Made by a program: the position numbers and the translations under genes. Shown piece after piece: positions 1,475 through 7,393 of a stretch of 36,838 bases of DNA. The DNA is taken from NCBI GenBank assembly GCA_016874655.1, contig VGTO01000006.1, forward strand, positions 1 to 36,838, given 5' to 3'. The notes under the pieces are model-generated. The model was not told the DNA's origin, searched no databases, and saw only the letters and a list, made by a program, of their open reading frames with translations. Within the stretch, counting starts at the first letter, position 1. Each line of letters begins with the position of its first letter. The DNA is from Bacillota bacterium (GTDB taxonomy: Bacteria; Bacillota; Dethiobacteria; DTU022).

Positions 1475-2407
1475 TTACTGGTAAAAGCGATACCCCTGGT
1501 GGGTGCCGCGTCTTTTTAACTCTCCGGTGACCGCGGCAGCGATCTGCCCGGGGCTTTCAGGCCACTGCGGGGCGATGAGCAGATCAGCGCTGGTGACCTG
1601 GCTGGCCAGACGGTGAACAACCGTGGAGGGATTTAGCAGTTCCAGGCAGTCGCACAGGTGTGGCAGATAGTCTGCCAGGCAGTCAAAAATCAATACATCC
1701 CCTGTTTTATATTCTCCAGCCAGCGGTGTGCCGTGGATGATCTGCAGGTGATGAAATTTGATTCCTTCAATCCCGTTTCTGTTAATCAAATCTATAGTTT
1801 CTGCATACATATCCGGTGTTTCACCGGGTAACCCCAGGATAATATGAGCACAGACCCGGATGCCCCTTTCACGGGTCAGCATAACAGCTTTTACAAAATC
1901 AGCAGCACTATGGCCGCGGTTGATTCTTTTTAAGGTTTTGTCAGCAGCAGACTGCAGGCCGAATTCCACCCAGAGATGGCAGCGGGCGACATAACTCTCA
2001 AGCAGATCAAGGATTTTGGGTGACAGGCAATCTGGCCTTGTGGCAATGCTGAGGCCGATCACTTCAGGAGCAGCCAGGGCCTGATCGTAAAGTTCGTTTA
2101 ATTTATTTAGTGGAGCATAGGTGTTGGTGTATGACTGGAAATAAGCCAGGTAGAGAGCGGGTTTCTTTTTTTTGCCCTTCTGTAGCTGTTCGCTTAAGGT
2201 TGGTGGCTGATCTTCCCTGCTGTGTGGAGAAAATGAAGGGTTATAACAGTAGCTACACCCTCCTGTGCCTATGGTGCCATCACGGTTGGGGCAGGAAAAC
2301 CCGGCGTCAAGTGGGATCTTGTAGACTGGTTGACCGAACTGCTCCTTAAAATAGGTACCTAACCGGTAGTACCATCCCGGTTCTCCCCGTTTAAGAGCGC
2401 TGCTCAT
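1475..2407 (-). CDS. TIGR01212-type radical SAM protein (YhcC-like)
   Basis: This is a radical SAM protein of the YhcC family, whose reaction is not established as far as I know. The preferred 310-residue product has the cluster motif C39-x11-C51-x2-C54 (CPNRDGTIGTGGCSYC), the family's expanded form of CxxxCxxC. ATRPDCLS and ILGLPGET follow in the barrel. An in-frame ATG at 2464 exists, but it would overlap mnmG by 74 bases. The ATG at 2407 is preferred because AGGGGGCGG lies just upstream. It still overlaps the mnmG stop by 17 bases, so translation is probably coupled. It is the last gene of the nadE-mnmG unit; a role in RNA modification is only a guess from mnmG. Confidence 0.85.
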   Translation of the reverse strand: MSSALKRGEPGWYYRLGTYFKEQFGQPVYKIPLDAGFSCPNRDGTIGTGGCSYCYNPSFSPHSREDQPPTLSEQLQKGKKKKPALYLAYFQSYTNTYAPLNKLNELYDQALAAPEVIGLSIATRPDCLSPKILDLLESYVARCHLWVEFGLQSAADKTLKRINRGHSAADFVKAVMLTRERGIRVCAHIILGLPGETPDMYAETIDLINRNGIEGIKFHHLQIIHGTPLAGEYKTGDVLIFDCLADYLPHLCDCLELLNPSTVVHRLASQVTSADLLIAPQWPESPGQIAAAVTGELKRRGTHQGYRFYQ

Positions 2408-4337
2408 CATCCGCCCCCTCATCTTTCCGTTCCGATCCTGCGCCCAGTGCTTCCGGGCGCTCAAGGTAGAGGATTAAGACTGTGATATCTGCCGGGGTTA
2501 CCCCTTCCATGCGTGAGGCCTGGCCCAGGGTTGCCGGTCGGATCTGCTCCAACTTTTGGCGTGCTTCGCGCGACAGATTACTTGCTTTTTGGTAATCAAA
2601 ATCTGCGGGGATCAATTTCTCGTGTAAGCGGGCTGTTTTTTCCACTAGCTGCTCCTGCTTGGCGATGTAGCCCGCATATTTAATCTGGTTCTCCAGTTCT
2701 TCTAAAGTTCCGCGGGGCAGTGAAGGCAGGACGCTGCCTTCCCACTCGCGGTAAGCCCGGTAATTAACCTCCGGCCTGCGCAGCAGTTCAAGAGCGCTGG
2801 TTGGTTGCTGCAGTGCTGCCGAGGAGCGGGCAGCCAAAAACTGCTCAACCGCGCTGCCCGGGTTGTGCCTGGTCTCCGCCAGTCGTTTAAGTTCATTTTC
2901 AATGTAAGCCTTCTTCTTCCTGTAGACCGCGTAGTGTTCATCGTCAATAAGACCAATTTGCCTGCCCTTTTCTGTCAGGCGCAGATCGGCATTATCCTGG
3001 CGCAGCAGCAGACGGTATTCGCCGCGGGAGGTGAAAATACGGTATGGCTCCTGTACGCCCCGGGTTACCAGGTCATCAATCATCACCCCGCTATAAGCTT
3101 CATTGCGTTTGAGAACCAGCGGTTCATTTTTGTTAATTTGTGCGGCCGCATTTATCCCGGCAACCAGTCCCTGAACGGCCGCTTCTTCGTAGCCTGTGGT
3201 TCCGTTGATCTGCCCGGCAAAGAACAAGCCCTTTATTATTTTCGTCTCCAGGGTGATTTTCAGCTGCACCGGCGGGGCGTAATCGTACTCAATAGCGTAG
3301 GCGGGGCGCATAATCTCAACTTTTTCCAGGCCCTTGATCGTGCGCAGGAAAGCCTCCTGAACTGCCGGTGGCAAGCCGGTGGAGATACCCTGCAGGTAAA
3401 GTTCGTCACTGTCGGCGCTTTCCGGTTCGATAAAGATCGGGTGCCTGTCGCGGCCGGCAAAGCGCACGATTTTATCTTCGATTGAGGGGCAGTAGCGGGG
3501 GCCGCGCCCCTTGATTAGTCCGCTGTAGATTGGGGCGACAGCAAAGTTGTCGCGAATCACGGCGTGTGTTTCGCTATTGGTGTAAGTCATCCAGCAGGGA
3601 ATCTGTACCCGCGGCGAATCGCTTCCGGTTATTGAGAAACCGGGAGCCTCTGGTTCTCCGGGAACTTCGGTTAACCCCGAGAAATCGATGCTGCGGCGGT
3701 ATACCCGTGGGGGAGTGCCTGTTTTAAAGCGATCAAACTTGAGTCCCAATTTTTGCATACTTTTAACCAGGTTAAAAGAAGGGGTCAGACTTCCCGGAGC
3801 GGCAGTGAAATGAAGATCGCCTAAAAAGATTTCCGAGCCTAAATAGACTCCACTGCAGAGGATTGCCGTACGGCATTCGTAAACAGCACCGCTGCGGCCA
3901 ACTACACCAGCTACCACTTCGCTTTCTGTATAGATCTCTTCGGCCATATCCTCGCGGATGGTTAAAAGAGGTTCCTTTTCGAGGCTAAGACGCATGGAGC
4001 GCTGGTAGCCCCACTTATCGATCTGGGCCCGTAGGGCCTGGACAGCAGGCCCTTTGCCCGTATTCAGCAGGCGTACCTGTAGCAGGTTCTGATCGGCGAC
4101 TTTAGCCATTTCTCCACCCAGGGCGTCAATTTCCCTTACTAGGTGACCCTTCCCCGGTCCGCCCAGAGACGGGTTGCAAGCCATATAAGCGATCATGTCC
4201 AGGTTCAGGGTCAGCAGCAGTGTGCTGCAGCCGAGGCGGGCTGACGCCAGGGCTGCTTCGCAGCCGGCATGCCCGGCGCCGATCACTACCACATCGTAGC
4301 GGCCGACAATCTGCTTTTTCAAATTTTCTCGATCCAT
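2391..4337 (-). CDS. mnmG: tRNA uridine-5-carboxymethylaminomethyl modification enzyme MnmG (GidA)
   Basis: MnmG, with MnmE, installs the (carboxymethyl)aminomethyl group on the wobble uridine of certain tRNAs, using FAD, NADH and a folate donor. The 648-residue product begins MDRENLKK and carries the FAD dinucleotide motif GAGHAGCEAA at about residue 20. Other family blocks are CNPSLGGPGKGHLV, FKTGTPPRV and GLFFAGQINGTTGYEEAA. The open frame extends upstream into nadE, but homology starts at the ATG at 4337, behind GAAGG. The gene follows nadE by only 16 bases and overlaps the next gene. No mnmE or rsmG is nearby, unlike many Bacillota where mnmG sits near the origin. Confidence 0.97.
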   Translation of the reverse strand: MDRENLKKQIVGRYDVVVIGAGHAGCEAALASARLGCSTLLLTLNLDMIAYMACNPSLGGPGKGHLVREIDALGGEMAKVADQNLLQVRLLNTGKGPAVQALRAQIDKWGYQRSMRLSLEKEPLLTIREDMAEEIYTESEVVAGVVGRSGAVYECRTAILCSGVYLGSEIFLGDLHFTAAPGSLTPSFNLVKSMQKLGLKFDRFKTGTPPRVYRRSIDFSGLTEVPGEPEAPGFSITGSDSPRVQIPCWMTYTNSETHAVIRDNFAVAPIYSGLIKGRGPRYCPSIEDKIVRFAGRDRHPIFIEPESADSDELYLQGISTGLPPAVQEAFLRTIKGLEKVEIMRPAYAIEYDYAPPVQLKITLETKIIKGLFFAGQINGTTGYEEAAVQGLVAGINAAAQINKNEPLVLKRNEAYSGVMIDDLVTRGVQEPYRIFTSRGEYRLLLRQDNADLRLTEKGRQIGLIDDEHYAVYRKKKAYIENELKRLAETRHNPGSAVEQFLAARSSAALQQPTSALELLRRPEVNYRAYREWEGSVLPSLPRGTLEELENQIKYAGYIAKQEQLVEKTARLHEKLIPADFDYQKASNLSREARQKLEQIRPATLGQASRMEGVTPADITVLILYLERPEALGAGSERKDEGADDEQRS

Positions 4338-4353
4338 CACATTTATACCTTCG

Positions 4354-5997
4354 TTAGTATTCGTAACTGCGGGCAATTGGCATGCGCCGTCCGGAGCCGA
4401 AAGCGCGCGTGGTAATGCGCAGCCCCGGCGCCGCCTGGCGCCTTTTAAATTCCGCTTTGTCAACCATCCGTGCTATTTTTTTCACTACCTCTTTCTCGTA
4501 ACCCCTGTTGCAGATCTCGCTGATCGAGAGGTTTTCCTCGATATATAGCTGAAGAATCGGATCAAGTAGCGGGTAGGGTGGCAGAGAATCCACATCTTTC
4601 TGGTCGGGACGCAGCTCGGCCGATGGTGCTTTGTCAATCGTGTTCCGCGGGATGACCTCTTTTCCTTTAACCCGGTTAATGTGATTGGATAGCTCGTAAA
4701 CCATCATTTTCGGTAGATCGGCGATCACCGCCAGGCCGCCGGCCATATCGCCGTAGAGCGTGCAGTAGCCAACCGCCAGTTCCGATTTGTTGCCCGTGGC
4801 CAGGGCCAGGTAACCTTCCCGGTTGGAGATATGCATCACCAGGTTGCCGCGGATCCTGGCCTGCAAATTTTCTTCAGCCAGATCCAGCCGGGGCTGACCG
4901 TCTTCGTTCAGCAGCTGCAAAAATGCAGTAAAAGGTTCATTTATCTTAATGAGCCGCTTTTCCATCCCCAGGTTGTCGGCCAGCTCTAAAGCATCTTTAA
5001 TACTGTGATCGGAGGAGTATGGTGATGGCATGATTAAACCCAGCACATTTTCGGCCCCCAGGGCTTCAACTGCGAGGGTGGCAACCAGCGCTGAGTCAAT
5101 CCCGCCGCTTAAGCCGAGGACAACTTTACTGAAGCCGGTCTTGGTAATGTAATCGCGCAAACCAAGAGTCAGGGCCCGAAGGACCGTAGCGCTATCTTCT
5201 GTAGCAGGGGGGGTGATTAAACCTGCGCTTTTATAGAGTTCTTCGCTTTCGATATAAAAAAGATCTTCGCCGAAAGACCTTGCTCGGTAGAGCAACTCGC
5301 CCTGGTTATTATAAACCAGGCTGGAGCCGTCAAAGATCAGCTCGTCGTTTCCGCCAACCTGGTTGACGTAGATGACCCCAGTGTTGTATTTGCGCGCCAG
5401 GAAAGTCAGCAGTTCCTCGCGAAGTTTCTGCTTGCCCAGGTGATAAGGCGAGGCGGAAATATTAATCAACAGTTGGGCTCCGCCTGCGAAAAGATCTTTT
5501 AGCGGGTCAATATGGTAGAGTTGCTTTTCGTTATAATCGCTGTCGTTCCAGATATCTTCGCAAACAGTGATTGCAGTCGGCAGGTCGCCGATCATTTCGA
5601 CAGCTCGAACCGGGGCAGGTCTGAAATAGCGCTCTTCGTCAAAAACATCGTAATTTGGCAGTAAAGATTTCCGGTGTAAAGATTTAATCTTACCATCTTT
5701 CAGGTAAAGGGCAGCGTTATAAAGAACTCCTAGCTCACGGTGAGAAGTGCCGATGATCACGGCCGGGCCGCCCAGGGTAAGCGGTAAAATTTGAGTTTCG
5801 AGCAGCTCCCTCTCCCGTTCTACAAAACTGTTGTAGAGCAGCAGATCTTTAGGGGGGTAACCGCTTAAAGTAAGTTCGCTAAAGATCACTAAGGCAGAAC
5901 CGTGATCGGCGGCCCGTAAAATATGATCTTTAATTTTTGCCGTGTTGTTGCTCAGGGCTCCTACTGTCTGGTTGAGCTGGGCCATGGCAATCCGCAT
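4354..5997 (-). CDS. nadE: Glutamine-dependent NAD+ synthetase
   Basis: NadE amidates nicotinic acid adenine dinucleotide to NAD+ with ATP, here using ammonia from glutamine. The N-terminal half is a nitrilase-type glutaminase with the triad E41 (FSELTLSGYPP), K110 (LHRKSLLPNYDVF) and C146 (TVCEDIW). The C-terminal synthetase has the ATP loop SGGIDSA at about residues 297-303 and ATGNKSE further on. The length of 547 residues is normal for this two-domain type. The start ATG has AAGGGGTG just upstream. It is the first gene of a minus-strand unit with mnmG and the radical SAM gene, and a strong hairpin lies in its leader. Confidence 0.97.
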   Translation of the reverse strand: MRIAMAQLNQTVGALSNNTAKIKDHILRAADHGSALVIFSELTLSGYPPKDLLLYNSFVERERELLETQILPLTLGGPAVIIGTSHRELGVLYNAALYLKDGKIKSLHRKSLLPNYDVFDEERYFRPAPVRAVEMIGDLPTAITVCEDIWNDSDYNEKQLYHIDPLKDLFAGGAQLLINISASPYHLGKQKLREELLTFLARKYNTGVIYVNQVGGNDELIFDGSSLVYNNQGELLYRARSFGEDLFYIESEELYKSAGLITPPATEDSATVLRALTLGLRDYITKTGFSKVVLGLSGGIDSALVATLAVEALGAENVLGLIMPSPYSSDHSIKDALELADNLGMEKRLIKINEPFTAFLQLLNEDGQPRLDLAEENLQARIRGNLVMHISNREGYLALATGNKSELAVGYCTLYGDMAGGLAVIADLPKMMVYELSNHINRVKGKEVIPRNTIDKAPSAELRPDQKDVDSLPPYPLLDPILQLYIEENLSISEICNRGYEKEVVKKIARMVDKAEFKRRQAAPGLRITTRAFGSGRRMPIARSYEY

Positions 5998-6052: not shown

Positions 6053-6235
6053 GTTTCTCCCGTTATTTTAAAGCTTTCTTCTGGCTGAATTATAATCAAG
6101 GGTTGCCGCAAAGTCAATAGTAATGGCTAATCTGCGATCCGGGCTTAGCCTGCCGATTCTTGCTAATGCCGTCAGAGGCCTTTATAATAAAAGGCAGAAG
6201 GATTATTAATAATACTCATAAGCGGAGGTGCGAAC

Positions 6236-6445
6236 ATGCTTGAGGTTTATGTTAAAGACGGCTGTCCATACTGCGAAAAACAGCTGGAAATCTTTAAAAA
6301 GAAGGGCCTTGAATATAAACTGCACAATGTCAGTGTTGACAAAGAGGCTCTGATTAGAGCCCGCGAGGAGTTTAAAGCTGACCGAGTACCGGTAGTCGTG
6401 GAAGATGGTGTTGTTAAGAATATCGGTTTTGGCGGCGGCGGCTGA
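6236..6445 (+). CDS. Small glutaredoxin-like protein, possible selenoprotein (Uxx-star type)
   Basis: This 69-residue protein has a thioredoxin/glutaredoxin fold, with C10-P-Y-C13 as redox motif and the cis-proline context RVPVVV (P52). It ends in a glycine-rich tail, NIGFGGGG. AGCGGAGGTG lies before the ATG. It is shorter than classical glutaredoxins. The TGA at 6443 may not be the true end: two codons (Lys, Ile) follow and then a second TGA, with a SECIS-like hairpin behind. I recall a family named Uxx-star glutaredoxin-like (seleno)proteins, and a Sec-Lys-Ile-stop end would fit that name. If the TGA is recoded the product is 72 residues. The redox partner is unknown. The glutaredoxin fold is secure; selenocysteine is an inference. 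Confidence 0.88.
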   Translation: MLEVYVKDGCPYCEKQLEIFKKKGLEYKLHNVSVDKEALIRAREEFKADRVPVVVEDGVVKNIGFGGGG

Positions 6446-6454
6446 AAAATCTGA
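6443..6454 (+). other. Candidate selenocysteine codon with two-codon extension
   Basis: TGA (6443-6445), AAA, ATC, TGA (6452-6454) follow a GGGG tail in frame. Recoding would give a C-terminal Sec-Lys-Ile next to a flexible glycine arm, similar in layout to the C-terminal redox tails of selenium-containing thioredoxin reductases. A plain tandem stop is the alternative. Confidence 0.5.
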
Positions 6455-6458
6455 TCAC

Positions 6459-6475
6459 GGTTGCCGTTGGCAACT
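6459..6475 (+). promoter_or_regulatory. SECIS-like hairpin after the TGA
   Basis: GTTGCC (6460-6465) pairs perfectly with GGCAAC (6469-6474) around a GTT loop; G6459 and T6475 can add a wobble pair. The loop begins 20 bases after the TGA at 6443 and its first base is G. This fits the bacterial SECIS rules as I remember them: a short upper stem, a small loop with an early G, and 16-37 bases from UGA to loop. Only three T follow it, so it is a poor terminator, though it does lie between two convergent genes. Confidence 0.5.
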
Positions 6476-7393
6476 TTAACGCGGGTCGAGGTGAACCACT
6501 GCATCACAGTGAAAATAACTGCTGATCCGGTATTCAACCTGGTGAGCGATGATATGAGCTTCTTCAAGACTGAGACGGCCGTTGACACCGATATGGACGG
6601 TTACCACTTTCCAGGAACCGTAATCGTGGATTTCCAGATCGTGGGTGTCGATCACCCCTTCAATGGCCATAGCACATTCGGTTACTTCCTGATAGAGCTC
6701 GTCTTCCGGGGCTTTACCCAATAGGCTGCTGCAAGACTGGATGGCTATTTTGCCTCCGGCATAGATGATGAACAGCGCAACGCCAAAACCAAGATAAGCG
6801 TCAAGACTTCTGTAGCCCCAGAAACCGCCTAACAGAGCAACCAAGACTAAAACGGATGATAGAGAGTCACTGCGATGGTGCCAGGCATCTCCCGCCAGGG
6901 CATCGGATTTGATCATTTTGCCCAGCTGGTCTGAAAAGTAAAACATAAATTCTTTTGCCAGTATTGAAGCGGTGACTACAATAATTGCTGCAATGCTTGG
7001 TTGGGCAAAAACACCTTCAGTTAGTCTGTTGTAAGAGCTGTAAATGAAGGCGATCCCGGCGCCAATAAGCATCAGGGCAATCAGCAAAGCGGCCAGATAT
7101 TCAATGCGTCCGTGGCCGTAGGGATGCTCGTGGTCGGGCTTGCGTTTTGCGAGTGCAAAACCGGCCAGCACCACCAGTGATGAAAGAATATCTGATGCAC
7201 TATGCACCGCATCAGCGACTAAAGCGATGCTGTTTGTAAGTAGTCCGAAGAAGGCCTTCAGCAGAGCTATAATTAGATTGCCCACAATACTGAGCCAGCT
7301 TTCGATCAAGCCAACCCGGTAACGCTCTTCGGGTTTGCGCAAATCCTTACCCGCAGTTAGTTTTGTTGCCAGTTTGTCAGCCAGTAATCTCAC
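6476..7393 (-). CDS. Cation diffusion facilitator family transporter
   Basis: A CDF protein exports divalent metal (zinc, iron, manganese or cobalt) from the cytoplasm by proton exchange. The 305-residue product has about six membrane segments. The metal-site motifs are ADAVHSASD (D61, H64, D68) and DAWHHRSDS in the fifth segment, with HEHPYGHGR between helices. The C-terminal cytoplasmic domain ends VHIGVNG...VVHLDPR, the usual metallochaperone-like fold. Translation starts at GTG behind GGGCGGG. The HxxxD forms of both sites suggest a Zn/Fe-type member, but the metal cannot be fixed from sequence. The gene faces the glutaredoxin-like gene, stop to stop. Confidence 0.93.
   Translation of the reverse strand: MRLLADKLATKLTAGKDLRKPEERYRVGLIESWLSIVGNLIIALLKAFFGLLTNSIALVADAVHSASDILSSLVVLAGFALAKRKPDHEHPYGHGRIEYLAALLIALMLIGAGIAFIYSSYNRLTEGVFAQPSIAAIIVVTASILAKEFMFYFSDQLGKMIKSDALAGDAWHHRSDSLSSVLVLVALLGGFWGYRSLDAYLGFGVALFIIYAGGKIAIQSCSSLLGKAPEDELYQEVTECAMAIEGVIDTHDLEIHDYGSWKVVTVHIGVNGRLSLEEAHIIAHQVEYRISSYFHCDAVVHLDPR

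Follow-up and report, generated by a model that had tools for sequence, protein, structure and literature searches.

A UGA codon two residues before the end of a small glutaredoxin-like gene is very probably read as selenocysteine in a sediment bacterium

The window analyzed here, a stretch of 36,838 nucleotides from the genome of a sediment bacterium, carries the gene of a small predicted redox protein with an apparent stop codon inside its coding frame, which raises the question of whether this codon ends the protein or is read as selenocysteine (Sec). As the initial annotation had described and as the sequence itself bore out, an ORF on the plus strand (6236-6445) starts with ATG, contains a CPYC motif and encodes 69 residues up to the first TGA, with GFGGGG at its C-terminus. 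The codons following GGGG are TGA (6443-6445), AAA, ATC and TGA (6452-6454). Based on the comparisons described below, we predict with a probability of about 0.95 that this is a selenoprotein gene, in which UGA 6443-6445 is read as Sec two residues before the true end. The features of the locus are as follows.

6224-6229, plus strand: Shine-Dalgarno sequence GGAGGT, 6 nt before the ATG (read directly)
6236-6451, plus strand: predicted Uxx-star glutaredoxin-like selenoprotein of 72 aa, MLEVYVKDGCPYC...IGFGGGG-Sec-Lys-Ile (profile, homologues and model)
6263-6274, plus strand: CPYC motif, residues 10-13, with Cys10 and Cys13 (homologue alignment)
6443-6445, plus strand: UGA predicted to be read as selenocysteine, residue 70 (homologue tails and Sec machinery)
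6452-6454, plus strand: predicted true stop codon, also UGA in the window gene (sequence and homologues)
6459-6475, plus strand: putative SECIS hairpin GGUUGCC-GUU-GGCAACU, wholly downstream of the stop codon, with GC-CGUUG-GC as core register (folding, covariation and the bSECIS model of PMC13188914)

The stem arms GUUGCC (6460-6465) and GGCAAC (6469-6474) enclose the loop GUU (6466-6468); the stem begins 14 bases and the loop 20 bases after the TGA, and three T follow the hairpin. These values had been noted before with a 6-bp stem, which a G-U pair in addition to the six Watson-Crick pairs extends to 7 bp. The bSECIS model describes a loop of 3-9 nt, a stem of 4-16 bp, a G in the first two loop positions, a distance of 16-37 nt from UGA and a minimum free energy of at most -7.5 kcal/mol (PMC13188914). 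With its 3 nt GUU loop, 7 bp, G in the first position, 20 nt and -8.7 kcal/mol, the window hairpin agrees with this model, and the earlier description of it as SECIS-like in stem, loop, early G and distance holds. The folding energy of -8.7 kcal/mol, calculated for 6443-6480, corresponds to a z of -2.3, which is only mildly unusual for a single sequence. When all 1329 TGAs on both strands of the window were scanned with a hairpin cut-off of our own scoring, 9 were preceded by at least 30 open codons and had a strong hairpin in range; this TGA ranked sixth, and the eight others had hairpins of comparable strength. A scan of the window against Rfam at gathering thresholds gave no matches. In a 71-nt fold begun upstream of the UGA, an alternative stem was preferred in which a GGC repeat pairs with the 5' arm of the hairpin; we disregarded it, since conservation is found for the 3' hairpin. 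As the signal from the single sequence is modest, the case is decided by the relatives and the genome.

In 60 related genomes, all 38 order-level homologues whose tail could be read (the window gene and 37 others) have UGA at the same codon, followed by two codons and a stop. The same arrangement was found in 18 of 18 further members from 398 phylum genomes, giving 56/56 in total, and 19 named MAG contigs, mostly of Syntrophomonadaceae and several of them from genomes already in the related-genome search, share the tail layout. Among the order-level homologues, the residue after Sec varies (Gly, Lys, Pro, Arg, Asn or Ala), and the second residue is Ile, Val or Leu in 38/38, using eight different codons. 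The xx-stop ending, whose conservation the initial annotation had proposed to check, is thus general in the clade, and no intact clade member ending at the glycine tail was found, all 56 readable members carrying UGA there. A decayed Uxx-star copy was also noticed in one related genome (L063, G024:C76:12947-13123), its reading frame broken by two TAG codons and a frameshift ahead of a GAG-UGA-GL tail.

The segment following the stop codon is conserved as a structure. Across the homologues, 93.3% of cells are paired and all six pairs show double-sided changes. The covariation score was 0.650 compared with 0.210 for shuffled alignments, with 0 of 500 shuffles reaching the score and slid registers giving at most 0.195, in a gapless alignment anchored on the loop, where registration by the CG loop motif and pairing introduces a mild bias and from which three ambiguous sequences were excluded. 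The consensus is GCCGC-CGUGA-GCGG, corresponding to GGUUGC-CGUUG-GCAACU in the window; the loop begins at a distance of 19-26 nt, counted from the U of the UGA, and its G is invariant. Phylum-level members mostly have GGA, GGU, GGUC, GUA or CGUGA-type loops at 20-25 nt, which fit the bSECIS model (PMC13188914). Because a stop codon sits between the UGA and the hairpin, the covariation is not explicable by coding. While bacterial SECIS elements are typically inside coding regions (PMC13188914), the stem-loop of the window gene falls into the 3' untranslated region, which follows simply from the U-x-x-stop layout. As such, these 56 homologues with a SECIS outside the coding region allow the structure to be read from covariation free of codon constraints.

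The assembly to which the window belongs (2.13 Mb, 96.5% complete) encodes selA (595 bits), selB (381 bits) and selD (370 bits), adjoining on one contig (G000:C27:350-4673; L009, L017 and L068), and a tRNA-Sec with anticodon UCA that was called by both Infernal and ARAGORN; the machinery that the initial annotation had named for a genome check is therefore present. In selD, too, codon 11 of the matched region is an in-frame UGA, and a GGGCC-GGA-GGCCC hairpin lies a short way downstream, so the organism probably makes at least one further selenoprotein (Sec-SelD). All 18 phylum-level carriers have selA, compared with a base rate of 257 of 398 genomes (4e-4, ignoring phylogeny). Among the close relatives, selA exceeds its cut-off in 54 of 60 genomes, and being nearly universal it provides no contrast there between carriers and non-carriers. 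In profile matches, selA and a convincing selB were not found in four gene-carrying genomes (G009, G014, G016 and G034), likely owing to incompleteness of the MAGs. The first of these, G009, is 97% complete and carries the UGA gene (L037), with no selA match and only a weak elongation-factor match for selB, and represents either an assembly gap or a recent loss of the Sec trait.

On the comparative evidence, recoding of the TGA as Sec, as initially suggested, stands well above chance, supported by the 56 tails and the covarying hairpin. SelB with Sec-tRNA(Sec) would bind the hairpin at 6459-6475, and the ribosome would insert Sec at UGA 6443-6445, add Lys and Ile, and then terminate at the second UGA. 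If the first UGA were instead an ordinary stop, the product would be a glutaredoxin-like protein of 69 residues and the hairpin a weak terminator, which would suit a domain complete enough for the fold to residue 67 and the three T directly after the hairpin. This is highly improbable considering that the codon is never UAA or UAG in any of the 56 members and is followed by two conserved codons and a stop, that the loop G and the spacing, needless for a terminator, are conserved, and that the same genome encodes the Sec machinery.

The true stop is itself UGA in the window gene and in 11 of the 37 other order-level homologues, and UAA or UAG in the remaining 26. The loop lies 20 nt after the first UGA and 11 nt after the second, so that only the first is within the accepted range of 16-37 nt. 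As the second UGA is out of SECIS range and the other 26 homologues have UAA or UAG at that codon, we infer that it terminates and that, although 9 nt nearer to the hairpin, it would stay unrecoded. Recoding of both UGAs at some rate, with a minor product extended to TAG 6722-6724, could draw on the open frame after the second UGA and the same downstream hairpin, but it is scarcely credible given the short distance, the UAA or UAG in 26 of 38 homologues, and an extension that shows no conservation and overlaps a CDF gene on the opposite strand. Twelve of the order-level genes thus have two UGAs at a spacing of 9 nt, the first predicted to be recoded and the second apparently not, and offer natural tests of how the distance to the SECIS determines the UGA that is recoded.

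To place the protein among known families, we relied on NCBIfam and a 2026 review (PMC13188914). The best match of the 72-aa protein is NCBIfam NF041212, Uxx_star (Uxx-star family glutaredoxin-like (seleno)protein), with 61.1 bits and an E of 1e-16, in an alignment that includes the Sec tail and reaches the final column of the profile; the match to Pfam PF00462 has 40.9 bits. It narrowly misses the curated NF041212 cut-off of 66 bits, which clade relatives exceed with up to 98 bits, and 20/20 sequences of set A2 match this family. The predicted protein has in common with Uxx_star its length, the glutaredoxin domain with the conserved N-terminal Cys, and Sec third from the C-terminus; the family layout of Sec (or Cys), two residues and a stop appears in the gene as UGA AAA ATC UGA. 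Uxx_star has the equivalogs NF041114 and NF041211; the predicted protein falls into none of the equivalog families 1, 2 or 3, being far under all of their cut-offs, and its place is in a GFGGGG-U-[KG]-I branch found in a single bacterial family. Judged from tree and layout, the predicted protein is a member of the Uxx-star clade below the formal cut-off. The initial annotation was right in recalling Uxx-star, which is a described family, so what is new here is a sub-threshold member. Its remark that such a gene is missed by standard gene calling is correct as far as the window protein falls under the curated cut-off, but not for the family, which NCBI models do cover. The comparative evidence confirms a predicted small selenoprotein gene under the curated annotation threshold.

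Selenoprotein families usually draw support from homologues in which Cys aligns with the UGA. When Cys in place of Sec, which the initial annotation had proposed to check in relatives, was searched for within the Uxx-star clade, it was not found. In a tree of 106 sequences, whose inner branching is unsure owing to the short alignment, a single branch with support 100/99 separates all 56 Sec-tailed proteins from helix-ending NrdH/Grx-type proteins and from the only two Cys-tailed relatives, L107 (G380; GQGC-VAGEA) and L118 (G067; GRTC-LA), which are far from the Sec clade on a long branch. The genomes of these two do encode selA and selB. Bacterial glutaredoxin folds with Sec are also known from the UxxC selenocysteine glutaredoxins (PMC13188914), where the N-terminal active-site motif contains Sec, whereas in the window protein Sec would be in the C-terminal tail. 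In several families of the phylum, there are glutaredoxin-like proteins whose N-terminal active site contains the UGA (TPTUPxC; L117, L126, L132, L135, L137, L140, L144, L146-L148, L150 and L151), all of them outside the Uxx-star clade.

The AlphaFold model of the window protein has a pLDDT of 95.3. NrdH-redoxin and BC3987 proteins end in a helix. In the model, the residual GGUKI occupies the place of the last helix in the NrdH/glutaredoxin fold. Structure comparison placed the protein in the glutaredoxin/NrdH fold, in an alignment that stops at residue 67, with Z of 11-12.5 and rmsd of 1.4-1.7 Å (PDB 4fiw and 3zij; Z 12.5 against 3zij). The window protein is therefore like NrdH-redoxin and the thioredoxin-like BC3987 in the fold over residues 1-67 and in the position of CxxC, and unlike these proteins, which have no Sec, in carrying a GGGG-U-K-I tail instead of the final helix. 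By analogy only, the tail resembles that of an unrelated protein, animal thioredoxin reductase, with no homology claimed. In that enzyme, Sec is close to the end of a short tail that contains glycine (GCUG-stop).

Cys10 is invariant in the 38 homologues, while Cys13 is replaced by Ser or Ala in three (CPYS twice and CPYA once) that keep Sec. Considering this pattern together with the confident NrdH/Grx-like model, Cys10 and Sec70 may be a working thiol/selenol redox pair forming a selenenyl-sulfide, a tentative reading that we rate a little short of an even chance; Cys13 would be dispensable in such a scheme. In known glutaredoxins, residues after the fourth strand help to hold GSH. Residue 67, at which the GSH-holding loop and helix of glutaredoxins begin, is also the point of departure of the tail from the fold, and the tail could place the selenol on Cys10. 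A Sec tail acting as a built-in glutathione substitute, making the protein a self-contained monothiol-type Cys10-Sec70 reductase of anaerobes, is doubtful, but if true, it would account for the loss of Cys13 in CPYS and CPYA, while no intact clade member was seen that had lost Sec or had Cys in its place.

The main functional rival to the redox pair is metal binding, in which Sec would be a ligand of a metal or organometal and not a partner of Cys10. Binding of metals or of unknown substrates has been suggested for the Sec residues of UXX-star proteins (PMC13188914), and a CDF-type cation efflux gene is next downstream in the window and in most close relatives. We regard this function as unlikely, as the CDF and NAD synthase neighbors are plain synteny within one bacterial family, the CDF gene is on the opposite strand and was not seen beside most of the examined members that are more distantly related, and the fold and Cys10 are typical of thiol redox proteins. 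The flanking nadE and CDF efflux genes were accordingly set aside as a functional clue, given their family-level synteny in most close relatives. For the biochemistry of Uxx-star proteins, the lack of Cys forms among those seen in the clade and the apparently dispensable second Cys point to concrete mutants.

Two other genes of the window deserve mention. At 2391-4463 on the minus strand, the MnmG match begins at residue 56 of the listed ORF, which at its 5' end runs into the end of the NAD synthase gene (4354-5997), so that the real start of MnmG is probably near 4298. At 632-1444 on the plus strand, a 3-keto-5-aminohexanoate cleavage enzyme of the lysine fermentation family NF052387 is encoded, with a match above the cut-off.
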